A DNA stretch of 64,000 nucleotides from Synechocystis sp. PCC 7509 (GTDB lineage: Bacteria; Cyanobacteriota; Cyanobacteriia; Cyanobacteriales; Chroococcidiopsidaceae), in NCBI RefSeq assembly GCF_000332075.2, contig NZ_ALVU02000001.1, positions 1,569,193-1,633,192 of the forward strand, written 5' to 3'. How positions within the stretch are numbered: position 1 is the stretch's first letter; each line of letters starts with the position of its first letter. The translations under genes were made by a program, and so were the position numbers. Below the pieces are notes generated by a model. That model was not told the DNA's origin. It ran no database searches and saw only the letters and a program-made list of their open reading frames with translations. Below are positions 1,518 to 9,091 of the stretch, piece by piece.

Positions 1518-3143
1518 ATGAGGGATACATCTAAAGACGGGTTTAGAAATAAACTAGAAACCTATGCTTTGACTCACTTTAAGCCAATTTGGAACTTAAT
1601 TCAAAGCAACGATACTCTCAAAAAAAAAGTTAATAAGTTTCTTGTCAACAACGCCATTTATAAAGTTCCTACTCGCCCTTATCCGTTTAGTACCATGTCT
1701 CCCTACACTTCTTGGGATTCATTGAGCGATCGCACTTATAGCGGGCTTCATCTTCCACCCCTTGATTGGCAACCTTTAACTAATGAAAATCATTTAAAAC
1801 TTAAGTTGGCTGATACGAAAGACTTTGAGAAAAAGCTACCAGCTATAGAAGATTTGCGGGGGTTATATCGCAAATCTGGCGAAACAAAATACTCGCCCAA
1901 ATCTACCTTAATTTTTCCTTATTTTGTTCAATGGTTTACCGATAGTTTTCTCCGCACAGATCGCCATAATCATCGTAAAAATACTTCCAATCACCAAATC
2001 GATCTCTGTACTGTCTATGGATTAAATGCAAAAATTACTCACTTGCTGAGATCCTACCAAGGAGGTAAATTAAAAAGTCAAATTATTAATGGCGAAGAAT
2101 ATCCACCTTTTTATTATGACGAAAAAGGAGAAGCAAAAAAAGAGTTTATTGGTTTACCACATCAATTAGATAATGATGGTAATCCAAAAGCTGATACTTT
2201 TCCTCTCGACAAAAAACAAAAGTTGTTTGCAATGGGAGTTGAAGTAGAAAGATCCAATGTTCAAATTGGTTATGTGATGCTAAATGTTCTGGCTTTAAGA
2301 GAACACAATCGCTTGTGCGAATTATTAGCAAAAACTTATCCAAGTTGGGATGATGAAAGACTTTTTCAAACCGCTAGAAATATTTTGATTGTGGAAGTTT
2401 TGAGAATTGTAGTAGAGGATTATGTCAATCACATTACCCCTTATCACTTTCAATTTATTACCGATCCTCTGACTTTTAGTAATGAAAAATGGTATCGCCA
2501 AAATTGGATGACGGTAGAATTTACTTTAGTCTATCGTTGGCATAGTATGCTACCAGATACTTTAATTTATAATGGGCAAAAAATCCCCACTTATGAGACG
2601 CAGTGGAACAATGAAATGATAATTAAGCAAGGATTAGGAGCTTTGTTTGAAGAAAGTTGTTCCCAACCATGCGCCCAACTGAGTTTATTTAATACTCCTG
2701 AATTTCTAATTCCTGTGGAGTTGGCGAGTGTTCGTTTTGGACGAGAAGTAAAGTTAAGAAGTTACAACGATTATCGCCAATTGTGTAAGTATCCACGCGT
2801 AACAGATTTCGATCAAATTAGTAGCGACAAGAACATTCAAAAAGAACTACAACGGCTCTATGGTCATGTAGATAATATTGAATTGTATGTAGGAATTTAT
2901 GCCGAAGATTTACGCGAAAACTCTGCTTTACCTTCTTTAGTTGGGCGATTAATTGGCATTGATGCTTTTTCACAAGTTTTAACTAATCCCCTACTCGCTG
3001 AAAGTGTTTTTCATCCCGAAACTTTTTCTCCCGTTGGCTGGGAGGAAATTCAAAATACTAAAACTCTTTCCCAATTACTACATCGCAATCTTCCTCCATC
3101 CGATAAAAAGTATAGAGTTTCTTTTGATCGCGCTTCAACTTAG
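1518..3143 (+). CDS. cyclooxygenase-like haem peroxidase
   Basis: A 541-residue animal-type haem peroxidase that aligns by eye along most of its length with the catalytic domain of prostaglandin synthase (COX). The motif EFTLVYRWHSMLPDT holds the equivalents of the COX catalytic tyrosine (Tyr339) and proximal haem histidine (His342). REHNRLCELL, DERLFQTARNILI and IEDYV-like segments also match. The distal segment reads QWFTDSFLRTD: the glutamine is kept (Gln138) but the distal histidine is Asp142. There is no EGF domain and no signal peptide. A GGGAGA ribosome site precedes the ATG. By family it would oxygenate a polyunsaturated fatty acid; the exact product cannot be read from sequence. A lipase and a GMC oxidoreductase lie downstream on the same strand. 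Confidence 0.85.
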   Translation: MRDTSKDGFRNKLETYALTHFKPIWNLIQSNDTLKKKVNKFLVNNAIYKVPTRPYPFSTMSPYTSWDSLSDRTYSGLHLPPLDWQPLTNENHLKLKLADTKDFEKKLPAIEDLRGLYRKSGETKYSPKSTLIFPYFVQWFTDSFLRTDRHNHRKNTSNHQIDLCTVYGLNAKITHLLRSYQGGKLKSQIINGEEYPPFYYDEKGEAKKEFIGLPHQLDNDGNPKADTFPLDKKQKLFAMGVEVERSNVQIGYVMLNVLALREHNRLCELLAKTYPSWDDERLFQTARNILIVEVLRIVVEDYVNHITPYHFQFITDPLTFSNEKWYRQNWMTVEFTLVYRWHSMLPDTLIYNGQKIPTYETQWNNEMIIKQGLGALFEESCSQPCAQLSLFNTPEFLIPVELASVRFGREVKLRSYNDYRQLCKYPRVTDFDQISSDKNIQKELQRLYGHVDNIELYVGIYAEDLRENSALPSLVGRLIGIDAFSQVLTNPLLAESVFHPETFSPVGWEEIQNTKTLSQLLHRNLPPSDKKYRVSFDRAST

Positions 3144-3217
3144 GCGTAATACACCTATACAAAATTAGGTGCTAAAACTTGCAGCTTTAAAAACTAATAA
3201 AAAGTGAGCATTTTAAA

Positions 3218-4375
3218 ATGAACAAACATTGGCTTTTAAAAGTAATCGCTTTGTTGCTTGGGTGGCTGTTATTTATTACTCCCGCCTATGCTTCCGATCA
3301 TCAAGATTCACCCAAAATCCTTAGCACTCCAGTATTAGACATTTCGGATCTTTTCGCCTTTACTAATCCAGAACAACCAAACCATTTAGTAATGGTAATG
3401 AATACATTACCCCTCGCCAGCGAATCGGCGTGGTTTGCAGATGCCTTTGAATATAATATTGTTGTAAAACCCATAAGTATTGCGGGGACTGGATCGCAAG
3501 CGGGTTTTAGTGTAGGCGATCGCGAATTTCGGTTTACTTGCAAATTTAAAACTCCAAAGGTGGGACAGCTCGGCACTTGCACCGCTCCAAAAGGGATCTC
3601 TGTACCTGTAAAAGTAAACGATGAAGACGGCACGCAAGGGGCGGGAATGCGTGTATTTGCAGGTCGTCGTTTAGATTCGTTCTTTTTGGACTTTAAACGG
3701 ATTGCTGAAGGTAAACTCGGCGCTGATGCGGAGGGGAAAAATTCGCTGCAAAACAAAAATGTCCTCAGCATTGTAATTGACGCAGACATGGACAAAGTGT
3801 TTGGGACAGACAATGGTTCGATGTTTGCAGTAGTGGGAGAAGTAAATACGATCGCCAAACCAACAATCCGCATCGATCGTCAAGGGCGATCGGAAATGAC
3901 TAATATTACCCTCTCTTTTAAGCAATTTGACCAAGTAAATAAAGACTTGGATGTGCGGGACTTGTACAACCAGGAAGATACTTTTAAGCCATCAAAAGAC
4001 TACATTGGAGCTTATCGCGCCCGGTTTAACGCCAATCTCGGCTTTTGGGACAACTTCGATCGCCAAATTGACTGGCAAATTAAAGAAAACGGTCAACATC
4101 CCCTCACAGACTTGCTATTGAATGACATTTTAGTTATCGATACCGCTAAACCTTGTACCGAAAAAGGCTACTTAGAGATTGAAAAAGCAATTTTGAAAGG
4201 TCAGCCCTACGCAACTTGTGGCGGACGAATGCCCAATGAGGACACCGTAGACGACACCATCAGTTTGTACATCAACAAAGGCAATGGAGCGCATTTCGGT
4301 GATGGAGTTAACCAACCCACTCAGTTAGCTGGCAACACTTTTCCTTATTTAGCACCACCCTATAGCGCCAAATAA
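3218..4375 (+). CDS. DUF4331 family exported protein
   Basis: 385 residues. It starts with a clear signal peptide: basic NKHWLLK, a hydrophobic core, and a cleavage site after AYA at about residue 25. The mature protein opens with SDHQDSP, the hallmark start of DUF4331 proteins, followed by LDISDLFAFTNP. These are secreted proteins of unknown activity; the acidic/histidine opening suggests metal binding (inference). It is probably periplasmic or outside the cell. It lies 74 bp after the peroxidase and 4 bp before the cation transporter, so cotranscription with the latter is likely. Confidence 0.85.
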   Translation: MNKHWLLKVIALLLGWLLFITPAYASDHQDSPKILSTPVLDISDLFAFTNPEQPNHLVMVMNTLPLASESAWFADAFEYNIVVKPISIAGTGSQAGFSVGDREFRFTCKFKTPKVGQLGTCTAPKGISVPVKVNDEDGTQGAGMRVFAGRRLDSFFLDFKRIAEGKLGADAEGKNSLQNKNVLSIVIDADMDKVFGTDNGSMFAVVGEVNTIAKPTIRIDRQGRSEMTNITLSFKQFDQVNKDLDVRDLYNQEDTFKPSKDYIGAYRARFNANLGFWDNFDRQIDWQIKENGQHPLTDLLLNDILVIDTAKPCTEKGYLEIEKAILKGQPYATCGGRMPNEDTVDDTISLYINKGNGAHFGDGVNQPTQLAGNTFPYLAPPYSAK

Positions 4376-4379
4376 ACCT

Positions 4380-5327
4380 ATGCACCATCACGATAGTTAC
4401 ACCCATACACACGGCGCAATTTCTCCCGAAATTGTGACTTCTGAGCGCGGAATTTGGGCAGTTAAATGGTCATTTATGGGACTGCTACTAACGGCTTTGT
4501 TGCAAGTTGGGGTTGTCATCCTTTCCGGTAGTGTAGCTCTCCTTGCCGATACAATCCATAACTTAGGCGACGCTGCAACGGCAATTCCTTTATGGATAGC
4601 TTTTTCTCTAGCCCAATGGAAACCCAATCAACGTTTTACCTACGGATATAGACGGGTAGAAGATTTAGCGGGAGTGGCGATTGTCGGGATTATCTTGCTA
4701 AGTGCGGCGATAACAGGCTATGAGGCAATAGAGCGATTTTTGCATCCCCAAGCAATTACTCACTTAAGAGCCGTTATGGTGGCGGCGGTGATTGGCTTTT
4801 TGGGTAACGAGGCAGTGGCAAGATTTCGGCTCAAAGTTGGGCAAGAAATTGGCAGCGCGGCTTTAGTAGCAGATGGCTACCACGCGCGAGTTGATGGGTT
4901 TACAAGCCTGTCAGTCTTTTTAGGCGCAGCTTTGACGGGGTTGGGGTTTCCTTTAGCCGATCCAATTGTGGGGTTATTAATTACTGTAGCGATCGCCCGA
5001 ATTGTCATCCAATCGGCGCAAACAATTTTTACCCGCTTGCTAGATGGAGTTGAACCGGAAGTAATTGCTGACCTTCATCATGCTATTAGCCATGTCCCAG
5101 AGGTACTAGAAATTAACAGTATCAAAGCTCGATGGACAGGTCATTGTCTCCAAGCAGAAATCGCCATTGCTGTTAATCCAGAACTTTCTGTAGTTGAAGC
5201 GCAAAAAATTGCTACTTCTGTGCGATCGCAATTGTCTAGCCATACGCACTTAGTCGAAGCAACCGTTTGTGTTGAACCACAACTAATCGCTAAATATAGC
5301 CTCCATCGACCGTTAGTTGTTTCCTAA
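4380..5327 (+). CDS. cation diffusion facilitator (CDF) transporter
   Basis: A 315-residue divalent-cation efflux protein. The N-terminus is histidine-rich (MHHHDSYTHTHG). Two membrane metal-site motifs are visible: ADTIHNLGD in TM2 (Asp57, His60, Asp64) and ADGYHARVD in TM5, the usual HxxxD pair of CDF zinc/iron exporters. About six membrane segments precede a cytoplasmic C-terminal domain of some 90 residues. The gene starts 4 bp after the DUF4331 stop, which suggests translational coupling. The metal is not predictable with certainty; zinc or ferrous iron are usual. Confidence 0.9.
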   Translation: MHHHDSYTHTHGAISPEIVTSERGIWAVKWSFMGLLLTALLQVGVVILSGSVALLADTIHNLGDAATAIPLWIAFSLAQWKPNQRFTYGYRRVEDLAGVAIVGIILLSAAITGYEAIERFLHPQAITHLRAVMVAAVIGFLGNEAVARFRLKVGQEIGSAALVADGYHARVDGFTSLSVFLGAALTGLGFPLADPIVGLLITVAIARIVIQSAQTIFTRLLDGVEPEVIADLHHAISHVPEVLEINSIKARWTGHCLQAEIAIAVNPELSVVEAQKIATSVRSQLSSHTHLVEATVCVEPQLIAKYSLHRPLVVS

Positions 5328-5359
5328 ATAATTTTGTTTAAATTACTGATTTCAAACCT

Positions 5360-7315
5360 ATGAATAGCAACATTGAAGACACCCAAATCTATGATTACAT
5401 CGTTGTTGGTTCTGGAGCGGGGGGCGGCCCTTTAGCAGCCAATTTAGCCAAAGCAGGTTACAGCGTCCTGTTACTAGAAGCTGGGGGCGATCCTTTGCAA
5501 ACCGATGATGGGAAACCAATGGAGCGTTACAGCTACTCAGTTCCGGCTTTTCATCCCCGCTCAACCGAAGACGACGATTTGCGTTGGAGTTTCTTTGTCA
5601 AGCACTATGCAAATGACGCAAAACAACGCCGCGATAGCAAGTATCACAAAGAACAAAAAGGGATTCTCTACCCCCGTGCGGGGACGCTTGGTGGTTGCAC
5701 GACTCACAACGCCATGATTACGATTTATCCTCACAACAGCGACTGGGATAAACTCGCCGAAATTACCGGGGATTCGTCTTGGCAAAGCGACAATATGCGT
5801 AAATATTTTGAGCGCTTAGAACAATGCAGATATATCGAGCGTCCCCAAAGTATTGAAGATAACACCAGTCGGCACGGGTTTGATGGCTGGCTGGCGACAT
5901 CACTCGCCGATCCTAAACTTGCAGTGCGCGATCGCCAATTATTAGGCACGATTGTTAAAGCTGTTTTAACTACCTTGCAAGACAAAGTACCCAATTTTTT
6001 CCAGCGAATACAGTATCTATCTTCCCAACTCAGTAACAGCTTTTTCTCAATCCTCAAAGGCGAAACGGCGCTCAAAGATATCATCGATCAATTGCTCGAT
6101 CCCAACGATTGGCGAGTAGTGCAAAACCGCCCGGAAGGGGTATTTATGATTCCTTTGGCCACTAAAGATGGTCGGCGCATTAGTACCCGCGACTATATCC
6201 GAGCAGTGGAGCGCCAGCACCCCGACAAGCTAAAGGTACAAACTCATGCCTTGGTAACTCAAGTGCTATTTGAACCCGATGAAGGCAAATACAAAGCGAT
6301 CGGTGTGGAATATCTAGAAGGGAAACACCTATACGGGGCAGATCCTAGAGCTTCCCAAACCAATAACTCTACAGCGCCAAAGCGTCAATACGCCAAACGA
6401 GAAATTATCCTCTCTGGGGGTGTATTTAATACGCCTCAATTGCTCAAGCTCTCTGGTATTGGTGCAGAGGAAGAATTAAAGCAGCTTAATATCCCTGTAA
6501 AAGTTAACTTACCTGGAGTAGGAGCAAACTTACAAGATCGTTATGAGGTGGGCGTTATTAGCCAAATGAAAGAAAATTTTGTCCTCCTAGAAGGCGGTAC
6601 TTTCAAAGAACCCGAATCAGCAGACGCACCCAAAGATCCGCATCTCCAAGAGTGGGAAAAATCCAAGTCTGGCTTATATACCAGCAATGGGGCGGTGATT
6701 GGAATTATCAAAAAATCCGATGAAAAGCTGAATGATCCTGACTTATTTATCTTTGGCTTACCGCTTCACTTTAAAGGGTATTTTCTCAAATACGCTGACG
6801 AAATTGCCGCCAAGAGCGATCGCTTTACCTGGGCAATTCTTAAAGCTCATACCAACAATACGGCGGGGACGGTAAAATTGCGTTCCACTAATCCCCAAGA
6901 CGTACCAGAAATCAACTTTCATTATTTTGATGAAGGTAACGACACCAAGGGCGAAGATTTGCAAGCGGTAGTCGAAGGGGTCAAATTTGTTCGGGAATTA
7001 ACCGACCAATCGGATTTATTTATTAAAACCGAAATGTTACCCGGCGGTGAAATTGACCAAGAGGACGAAGTTAAGCAGTTTATCAAGGATGAAGCCTGGG
7101 GACATCATGCTTGTGGAACTTGTAAAATTGGACGACCAGAGGACAAAATGGCAGTTTTAGACAGCAATTTTCGCGTGTATGGAACGCAAAATTTGCGCGT
7201 AGTCGATGCTTCGGTATTTCCTTTTATTCCTGGCTTTTTCATTGTTGCCCCCATCTACATGATTAGCGAAAAAGCCTCGGATGTAATTATTCAAGCTGCC
7301 CAAAATCAGCCTTAA
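5360..7315 (+). CDS. GMC family FAD-dependent oxidoreductase
   Basis: 651 residues. The dinucleotide-binding motif VVGSGAGGGPLAANLA (residues 15-30) with acidic Glu40 at the end of the second strand, the GMC signature GTLGGCTTHNAMITI, and the C-terminal HHACGTCKIG (His582/His583) plus NLRVVDASVFP identify the glucose-methanol-choline oxidoreductase family. These enzymes oxidise alcohols using FAD. At 651 residues it is longer than the usual 500-550, with extra sequence between the FAD and substrate domains, as in cholesterol-oxidase-like and fatty-alcohol-oxidase-like members. The substrate is unknown. Position between a CDF transporter and a patatin-like lipase suggests a lipid alcohol or hydroxy fatty acid (inference). 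Confidence 0.88.
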   Translation: MNSNIEDTQIYDYIVVGSGAGGGPLAANLAKAGYSVLLLEAGGDPLQTDDGKPMERYSYSVPAFHPRSTEDDDLRWSFFVKHYANDAKQRRDSKYHKEQKGILYPRAGTLGGCTTHNAMITIYPHNSDWDKLAEITGDSSWQSDNMRKYFERLEQCRYIERPQSIEDNTSRHGFDGWLATSLADPKLAVRDRQLLGTIVKAVLTTLQDKVPNFFQRIQYLSSQLSNSFFSILKGETALKDIIDQLLDPNDWRVVQNRPEGVFMIPLATKDGRRISTRDYIRAVERQHPDKLKVQTHALVTQVLFEPDEGKYKAIGVEYLEGKHLYGADPRASQTNNSTAPKRQYAKREIILSGGVFNTPQLLKLSGIGAEEELKQLNIPVKVNLPGVGANLQDRYEVGVISQMKENFVLLEGGTFKEPESADAPKDPHLQEWEKSKSGLYTSNGAVIGIIKKSDEKLNDPDLFIFGLPLHFKGYFLKYADEIAAKSDRFTWAILKAHTNNTAGTVKLRSTNPQDVPEINFHYFDEGNDTKGEDLQAVVEGVKFVRELTDQSDLFIKTEMLPGGEIDQEDEVKQFIKDEAWGHHACGTCKIGRPEDKMAVLDSNFRVYGTQNLRVVDASVFPFIPGFFIVAPIYMISEKASDVIIQAAQNQP

Positions 7316-7360
7316 ACAAGCGATACAACCTGTCAATTTATAAATTAGGAAAAATATATC

Positions 7361-9091
7361 ATGGCTCAAAAACTAGCGATCGCCATTAGTGGTGCTGTTT
7401 CTTTAGGTAGCTTCGAGTCTGGGGTAATGTACGAGATTATTGAAGCTATTGCTCAACACAACTTGCACCCAAATACCACCGAAGACCAAAAAATTGTTAT
7501 TGACGTAATTACTGGAGCATCCGCCGGAGCAATGACGGCGGCGATTGTCGCTCAAAAACTGCTGTTTGAAGCTGATAAACTCCGAGAACCTCTCCACAAC
7601 GATATTTACCGCGCCTGGGTAGAAGAAGCTGACATTCAAACGCTACTTCAGTTTGGAATGGAAGATAATCCTGATATGGCGATTTTGTCCTCTGGCTTTG
7701 TGCAGCAAGTTGGCAACAAGTATCTGTTGAATCGCTATAACTCTAATGCTCCAACAAGTATTGCTAAACGCCACCCGGCGGTAGCTAAGAGTATTCAGCT
7801 AGGAATTGCTTTATCTAACCTCAATGGGTTTGACTTCAAAATTAACTTAACTAACATCCAAGGACAACTAAATTCAGACAACCAGCAAAACAATGCTTTT
7901 ACCTACACAAAACATAAAGATTGCTATATCACCCAAATTCAAAGCGACAAAGATGATAACTATAATCTTTGGGAATTAATCAAGCGTATTGCGATCGCTT
8001 CTGGTTCGTTTCCCTTCGCCTTCCAAGTACAGGAAGTTGACAGAATAAGCTCTGATTCAGCTTATAAAGGCTCAGAATTTTATACTGAGCCAGAACCCGG
8101 AAAAGAGCCGAATAAACAACCTTTTGCCTATACCGATGGCGGTGTTTTTGAAAATGAACCTTTAGGTATGGCAATTAGTCTAGCCAAAAAACTCGATAAA
8201 TCCCCCCAAGATTATGAAAAACGCTTTTTCCTCTATGTAGCTCCAGGGCCGAAAAGTTCTAGCATAAATAAGGATTTTACTGCGGCTAAAGCTTTCTATG
8301 TGAATACAGCCTTCGCTTTAGCTGGAGGAATTTTTACTCAATCACGCTTTCAAGATTGGATTCAAGTTAGCGATGCCAATGAATCGGTGGAAAAGTTTAA
8401 CAATCAAGCTCTGTTTTTAAGAGACTTACTTAAGCAACATCCAGAAAAATATTCAGAGTTTGCCGAAGTTGCCGAAAAACTTTTAAACACTCTTTATACA
8501 GATATCAAATACAGAGAAGCGGACGAAAAGCGACTAAAGCAGCAGTTTGAGGAAGAAGTGCAACAACTTACTAGCTTGGGAGAAAATGGCAAAGCGATTG
8601 CTAGTAGTTGGTTGAAGGCTGTTCAAGCTCTAGAAAAAGCGGCTAACCTTGGCGCTAAAGAGCTTTTGACCGTTTATGCTATTACTGCCAAAGATGGAGA
8701 ATTAGCTGGAGAAAAATTATCAGCTTTTGGTGGTTTCTTCGATCGCAAGTTTCGCGATTACGATTACTATATTGGGCGTGAAAAGGCTGCGGAGTTTCTG
8801 AGAAATCTTCAAAAGCAAAATAGTCAAGGTGGTAAAAAAACAGGTCAAATTTATTTGCTTAACTGTAATCCTGGACAAAATTTACAAAAACCTGCCGTTC
8901 ATTTGGGAGACGTAGAACTAGATAACGTTGACCGAAAATTGCGTAAGCAAGTTAAAAGTCTGCTTTTGGAACGTTTGGGGAGAATTATTGATTCTGTAGA
9001 AAAACGACCATTAATTGCCTTTCCTTTGAAGTTTTTTGTCAAAAAAATGGCTGAAGATAAACTAGAGGAAATTTTGCACTTGAAGCGATAG
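7361..9091 (+). CDS. patatin-like phospholipase
   Basis: A 576-residue patatin-fold acyl hydrolase. Visible are an oxyanion-type glycine region (ISGAVSLGSFESG, residues 9-21; more divergent than the usual GGGxxG), the nucleophile elbow GASAGAM with Ser54, and the dyad aspartate in YTDGGVFENEP (Asp259). The C-terminal ~250 residues are helical and charged with no recognised domain. No signal peptide, so it is probably cytoplasmic or peripheral to membranes. It lies 45 bp downstream of the GMC gene. By family it releases fatty acids from membrane lipids, which could feed the COX-like peroxidase upstream (inference). Confidence 0.88.
   Translation: MAQKLAIAISGAVSLGSFESGVMYEIIEAIAQHNLHPNTTEDQKIVIDVITGASAGAMTAAIVAQKLLFEADKLREPLHNDIYRAWVEEADIQTLLQFGMEDNPDMAILSSGFVQQVGNKYLLNRYNSNAPTSIAKRHPAVAKSIQLGIALSNLNGFDFKINLTNIQGQLNSDNQQNNAFTYTKHKDCYITQIQSDKDDNYNLWELIKRIAIASGSFPFAFQVQEVDRISSDSAYKGSEFYTEPEPGKEPNKQPFAYTDGGVFENEPLGMAISLAKKLDKSPQDYEKRFFLYVAPGPKSSSINKDFTAAKAFYVNTAFALAGGIFTQSRFQDWIQVSDANESVEKFNNQALFLRDLLKQHPEKYSEFAEVAEKLLNTLYTDIKYREADEKRLKQQFEEEVQQLTSLGENGKAIASSWLKAVQALEKAANLGAKELLTVYAITAKDGELAGEKLSAFGGFFDRKFRDYDYYIGREKAAEFLRNLQKQNSQGGKKTGQIYLLNCNPGQNLQKPAVHLGDVELDNVDRKLRKQVKSLLLERLGRIIDSVEKRPLIAFPLKFFVKKMAEDKLEEILHLKR

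Follow-up and report, generated by a model that had tools for sequence, protein, structure and literature searches.

The present study concerns a gene in a 64,000-nucleotide stretch of the genome of Synechocystis sp. PCC 7509 (contig NZ_ALVU02000001.1, positions 1,569,193 to 1,633,192), which is called the window here. The gene codes for a relative of cyclooxygenase (COX) in which an aspartate takes the place of the distal haem histidine. The substitution is real, it is ordinary for the family of the protein and it is already in the literature for the 10S-dioxygenases (10S-DOX). It is probable, at about 70% by our estimate, that we have here a fatty-acid dioxygenase of the bacterial 10S-DOX family and that peroxide activates it by way of a Gln/Asp/Arg pocket resembling the Asp/Arg pair of the dye-decolorizing peroxidases (DyPs). 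The pocket residues and their invariance, the family of the protein and the surroundings of the gene are established in this analysis, and the gene neighbours are less ordinary than the distal aspartate. The gene and the codons concerned are given below.

1518 to 3143, forward strand: COX-like fatty-acid dioxygenase (bacterial 10S-DOX family), 541 amino acids (phmmer, PF03098, alignment and Foldseek).
1929 to 1931, forward strand: Gln138, equivalent to COX Gln203, invariant in 62/62 (alignment).
1932 to 1934, forward strand: Trp139, in the place of the first His of QHFTH in COX, identical in 62/62 (alignment).
1941 to 1943, forward strand: Asp142 (GAT), at the position of the COX distal His207 (phmmer and alignment).
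2250 to 2252, forward strand: Arg245, at COX Val291, with the spacing to REHN of the catalytic Arg of ordinary peroxidases (alignment; PMC13049297).
2532 to 2534, forward strand: Tyr339, equivalent to the catalytic Tyr385 of COX (alignment).
2541 to 2543, forward strand: His342, equivalent to COX His388, the proximal haem ligand (alignment).

Membership of the peroxidase-cyclooxygenase superfamily follows from the PF03098 (An_peroxidase) profile, which gives 171.9 bits for the window protein against a curated cut-off of 25. In a phmmer search of the PDB, residues 15-525 aligned with COX-2 at an E value of about 1e-68. An AlphaFold2 model was built from 21 sequences (mean predicted local distance difference test score, pLDDT, 73.5; predicted TM score, pTM, 0.80). 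Its top fold matches in the PDB by Foldseek were COX-2 (best) and COX-1, at a TM score of about 0.78, and its helix 132-144 carries Gln138 and Asp142. No DyP profile or fold was found for the protein: Pfam gives An_peroxidase only and the fold is that of COX. As in the prostaglandin synthases (PGHS), Tyr385 and His388 are present (Tyr339 and His342), but the distal His207 is Asp142, and both the Arg120 carboxylate anchor and Ser530 are replaced by alanine (Ala46 and Ala483). The residues that mark the 10S-DOX family are all in place, namely the distal Asp, the Arg at COX Val291 and the equivalents of Tyr348, Tyr385 and His388. In the tree the protein groups with sequences of the type of the Nostoc punctiforme enzyme (NpDOX), apart from the alpha-dioxygenases (alpha-DOX) and the ordinary peroxidases.

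The position of Asp142 was fixed by two alignments. In the phmmer alignment the window sequence vqwftdsflrtd lies over aqhfthqffktd of COX-2 with zero gaps, so that Asp142 falls over the distal His207 and Trp139 over the neighbouring His. The second alignment comprised 62 distinct bacterial relatives (Cyanobacteriota and Actinomycetota, the window protein included) together with murine COX-2, and in it Gln138, Trp139, Asp142, Arg245, Tyr302, Tyr339, Arg340 and His342 are invariant in 62/62. The step from Gln to His is four residues in ordinary cyanobacterial peroxidases (QFIDHD) and in alpha-DOX-like proteins (QFQTHDW), which again puts Asp142 in the place of the His. A register shift that would put Asp142 on the haem-ester Asp of the MPO-type motif QxxDH was rejected, since the Gln-to-Asp step is four residues as in COX and the cyanobacterial peroxidases. 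The identities that the first-pass annotation had given to Gln138, Trp139, Asp142, Tyr339 and His342, and its placing of Asp142 at the distal His position, hold; the span 1939-1947 that it assigned to the substitution includes the Asp142 codon but runs off the codon boundaries. It had also named His150 or His152 as residues which might lie over the distal position instead. Both were rejected, as across the relatives position 150 is H, Q, N, Y or E and position 152 is K, R, H, P or N. His159, His263, His305 and His342 are conserved in 62/62, but all four are also His in COX-2 and thus none of them substitutes for the distal His. Seven more homologues, on plasmids, also carry the distal Asp, which marks the whole family, and its invariance rejects sequencing error, chance or a lone mutation as its source.

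Two further invariant changes were found beyond those listed at first: COX Val291 is replaced by Arg245 and COX His386 by Arg340. Arg245 sits sixteen residues ahead of the R in REHN, and the spacing is equal in peroxidase sequences like VRANE...REHN. The pocket of this family is thus Gln/Asp/Arg, compared with Gln/His/Val in COX and Gln/His/Arg in ordinary peroxidases. It is known that in DyPs the distal Asp deprotonates H2O2 and the distal Arg maintains the shape of the pocket (PMC6153280). The first-pass observation is confirmed, and its suggestion of a dioxygenase activated in another way is half right. The protein is COX-like, with the oxygenase Tyr and an altered pocket, and the characterised member of the family (10S-DOX) is a dioxygenase; that its activation must be different is unsupported, because the Asp is accompanied by invariant Arg245 and Gln138, an Asp/Arg pair cleaves peroxide in DyPs (PMC6153280) and the N. 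punctiforme enzyme with its distal Asp oxygenates even oleic acid.

Among the closest known systems is the linoleate 10S-DOX of N. punctiforme (UniProt B2J5P4, 542 amino acids, Tyr342), covered by a 2026 review (PMC13049297). The distal helix of NpDOX reads F143-t-d-s-F compared with F205-t-h-q-F in COX, and 10S-DOX departs from COX at distal His207 and also at Val291, where it has a conserved Arg (PMC13049297). NpDOX turns linoleic and oleic acid into 10S-hydroperoxides (PMC13049297) and has been used for preparing 10(S)-HPODE (PMC9579011). It dioxygenates with a distal Asp, so a missing distal His is no bar to dioxygenase activity, and its oxidation of even oleic acid is taken to need a strong protein radical. 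Proteins L116 and L119, from two genomes, agree with B2J5P4 in all of its printed motifs and numbers that were tested. Some points weigh against the reading of the window protein as such an enzyme with a Gln/Asp/Arg pocket. The protein is about 57% identical, over the full length, to the NpDOX-type group including L116 and L119, so that the product position could differ; within its own group identity to it is 74-81%. The published activity is that of the Nostoc enzyme and not of a member with the exact operon of the window. Two Ruegeria homologues (L179 and L180) retain the distal Asp with Asn in place of Arg245, and hence the distal Arg is not universal in Asp-bearing homologues. Lastly, the confidence of the model is middling at its mean pLDDT, residues 233-244 directly before Arg245 fall below 50, and the model is without haem, so the geometry of the Asp-Arg-iron pocket comes from homology.

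COX mutants in the distal His lose most of their peroxidase activity but retain cyclooxygenase activity if hydroperoxide is supplied. In the window dioxygenase a hydroperoxide would oxidise the haem to Compound I. Asp142 may accept the peroxide proton and Arg245 may stabilise the cleavage of the O-O bond, together replacing the role of COX His207; by analogy with DyPs only, the two could make enough Compound I for a Tyr339 radical. The oxidised haem would pass its oxidation to Tyr339, whose radical could abstract an allylic hydrogen from a C18 fatty acid, possibly supplied by the neighbouring patatin lipase, and addition of O2 to the fatty-acid radical would give a hydroperoxide. Weak peroxidase turnover is expected, and a weakened peroxidase site would leave the hydroperoxide largely unreduced for a separate partner enzyme. 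In Nostoc this partner would be the catalase-related lyase; in the window it is probably the GMC oxidoreductase, acting on an alcohol or carbonyl derived from the hydroperoxide. We infer the role of the Asp/Arg pair, the exact product and the roles of the GMC, DUF4331 and CDF proteins. The genes that follow the dioxygenase gene on the same strand are given below.

3218 to 4375, forward strand: DUF4331 protein with a signal-peptide-like N-terminus (Pfam; conserved neighbour in genomes G332 and G703).
4380 to 5327, forward strand: CDF cation efflux transporter (Pfam; conserved neighbour).
5360 to 7315, forward strand: GMC-family flavin oxidoreductase, best solved relative alcohol oxidase 8rpf (Pfam; conserved neighbour).
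7361 to 9091, forward strand: patatin-like phospholipase (Pfam; conserved neighbour).

The DUF4331 gene starts 75 bases after the dioxygenase gene, and gaps are short throughout the run DOX-DUF4331-CDF-GMC-patatin (1518-9091). Promoter and terminator scans of the locus gave no clear excess over shuffled sequence, so the operon call is based on spacing and conservation. Among the genomes searched, the five-gene set occurs only in the window genome (G000), G332 and G703. G703 (L194; dioxygenase 81% identical) has the same genes and one additional open reading frame (ORF) of 708 amino acids, and in G332 (L136; dioxygenase 75% identical) the order is DOX-GMC-DUF4331-CDF-patatin. DUF4331 of the window type is present in these three genomes and absent from seven others tried. 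Five further genomes of the genus to which the window belongs, some of them incomplete, have neither DOX nor GMC. This suggests that the genes were gained together, and the run looks like a mobile or transferable module. It was also observed that the second catalytic His/Asn position of the GMC protein is apparently Phe (PGFFIVAP, compared with NRGHTMAP of 8rpf), so its active site may be unusual.

At most of the Nostocaceae loci examined the dioxygenase gene is flanked on one side by a Tle1-like lipase gene (PF09994) and on the other by the gene of a catalase-related protein, very likely to be the 10S-hydroperoxide lyase. This arrangement holds for NpDOX-type genes and for most examined relatives 77% identical to the window dioxygenase. 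The catalase-related lyase was not found genome-wide in G000 or G332 (E 0.001; G703 was not searched), and as positive controls 21 of 32 genomes were matched in the same search. A single catalase turned up in G000, and it is of full length. What is new here is that the usual lyase partner was not found genome-wide and that the gene heads a mobile-looking run common to two other genomes. A lipase neighbour is conserved, being Tle1-like in Nostoc and patatin in the window, in G332 and G703 and beside alpha-DOX-like genes. GMC and patatin also adjoin a true alpha-DOX-like gene on a plasmid of Calothrix PCC 6303 and in G481 and G490. That alpha-DOX-like protein matches the rice alpha-oxidase structure 4kvj (E 1e-120). 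In the loci NC_019727.1 51310-59234 (L201), L196 and L197 the GMC protein is about 66% identical and the dioxygenase beside GMC and patatin is a plant-type alpha-DOX homologue with the distal His. Occurring beside both 10S-DOX-type and alpha-DOX-like genes, GMC and patatin seem to accompany, as a set, fatty-acid dioxygenases of two different subfamilies.

These neighbours make it conceivable, though we would not favour it, that this subfamily has another substrate or a product other than 10S-hydroperoxy-linoleate (oxygenated at another position, or from other lipids) and that GMC, DUF4331 and CDF form a distinct pathway; this would be a variant of the best explanation and not its opposite. The missing lyase, the five-gene set confined to three genomes, and GMC and patatin beside alpha-DOX-like genes all speak for it. 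On the other hand the closest Nostocaceae relatives mostly share the lipase and lyase flanks of the NpDOX-type genes, suggesting the same chemistry. It is unlikely that the peroxidase site is functionally dead and that the enzyme is activated by something other than a COX-type peroxide cycle, such as a radical source from outside, the DUF4331 partner or the GMC flavoenzyme, a possible producer of H2O2. The distal His is missing family-wide, the Nostoc enzyme releases its hydroperoxide, a GMC flavoprotein is among the operon partners and information on DOX peroxidase activity is scarce according to the review (PMC13049297). However, invariant Gln138 and Arg245 alongside Asp142 are unexpected for a dead pocket, an Asp/Arg pair works in peroxide cleavage in DyPs, and most members of the family are without the GMC partner. 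The idea that the protein is a genuine cyclooxygenase, or an ordinary peroxidase, with a distal residue altered by drift or sequencing error has next to no chance of being correct and is already refuted by the alignment, since the Asp is fixed in all 62 homologues and in alphaproteobacterial plasmid homologues and COX Arg120 and Ser530 are replaced too.

With mainly cyanobacterial outgroups a single change explains the distal Asp of the 62 sequences (Shimodaira-Hasegawa-like approximate likelihood ratio test, SH-aLRT, 96). The plasmid homologues that carry it come from Acaryochloris, Paracoccus, Rhizobium, Sinorhizobium, Methylobacterium and Ruegeria. After their addition, and with the distal columns excluded, a group of the Asp sequences plus animal COX had support of 100/99. 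With Ruegeria included animal COX joins Ruegeria (87/76, on long branches); with Ruegeria left out the Asp group forms one side of a branch (95/94). A single Asp clade is not rejected with Ruegeria in the tree (approximately unbiased test, p-AU 0.42). A rather improbable reading of the history is that the Asp/Arg pocket is the older one on the COX branch, with animal COX nested in an Asp-bearing bacterial family and the distal His regained along with efficient peroxidase activity. In parallel, the window operon would be a new transferable oxylipin pathway with the GMC flavoenzyme replacing the hydroperoxide lyase. Some loci of the family show other arrangements. On plasmids of Rhizobium etli and Sinorhizobium medicae (L176 and L177) the Asp-type dioxygenase gene adjoins one for a cytochrome P450, a pairing reminiscent of the DOX-CYP fusions of fungi. 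In Mycolicibacterium (L051 and L052) the gene after the dioxygenase codes for an AlkB-like/FA_desaturase membrane protein. In L135 (G277) an inserted ORF of 399 amino acids interrupts the dioxygenase gene, leaving two pieces of what is apparently a broken copy.

A family-wide natural Asp/Arg distal pocket in working relatives of COX offers a clean test of how far peroxidase activity is needed for the self-activation of a tyrosyl-radical dioxygenase. The alternative operon gives a handle on bacterial hydroperoxide products other than lyase products such as 1-octen-3-ol. Among the known systems DyPs have a distal Asp and Arg as their peroxide-cleaving pair (PMC6153280) but belong to an unrelated superfamily, and the likeness is one of analogy only, with no homology claimed. 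Plant and cyanobacterial alpha-DOX are of the same superfamily, and some have GMC and patatin neighbours, but their distal His is retained (QF-x-x-HDW) and they make up a clade of their own. COX (PGHS-1/2) shares with the window dioxygenase its fold (Foldseek TM 0.78) and the equivalents of Tyr385, His388, Tyr348 and Gln203; the two differ in that the window protein has Asp at COX His207, Arg at both Val291 and His386, and Ala at both Arg120 and Ser530. NpDOX is of the same family and of similar length, with the distal Asp, the Arg at COX Val291, the catalytic Tyr, the proximal His and the Tyr348 equivalent; for the lyase partner of its two-enzyme pathway no counterpart was found in the window genome. 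Unlike NpDOX, which has Phe at COX Tyr504, the window dioxygenase keeps Tyr (Tyr457), and it has a two-residue insertion ahead of Arg245. At codon 457 the relatives have Tyr in 43/62 and Phe in 18/62, the NpDOX type being among the latter.
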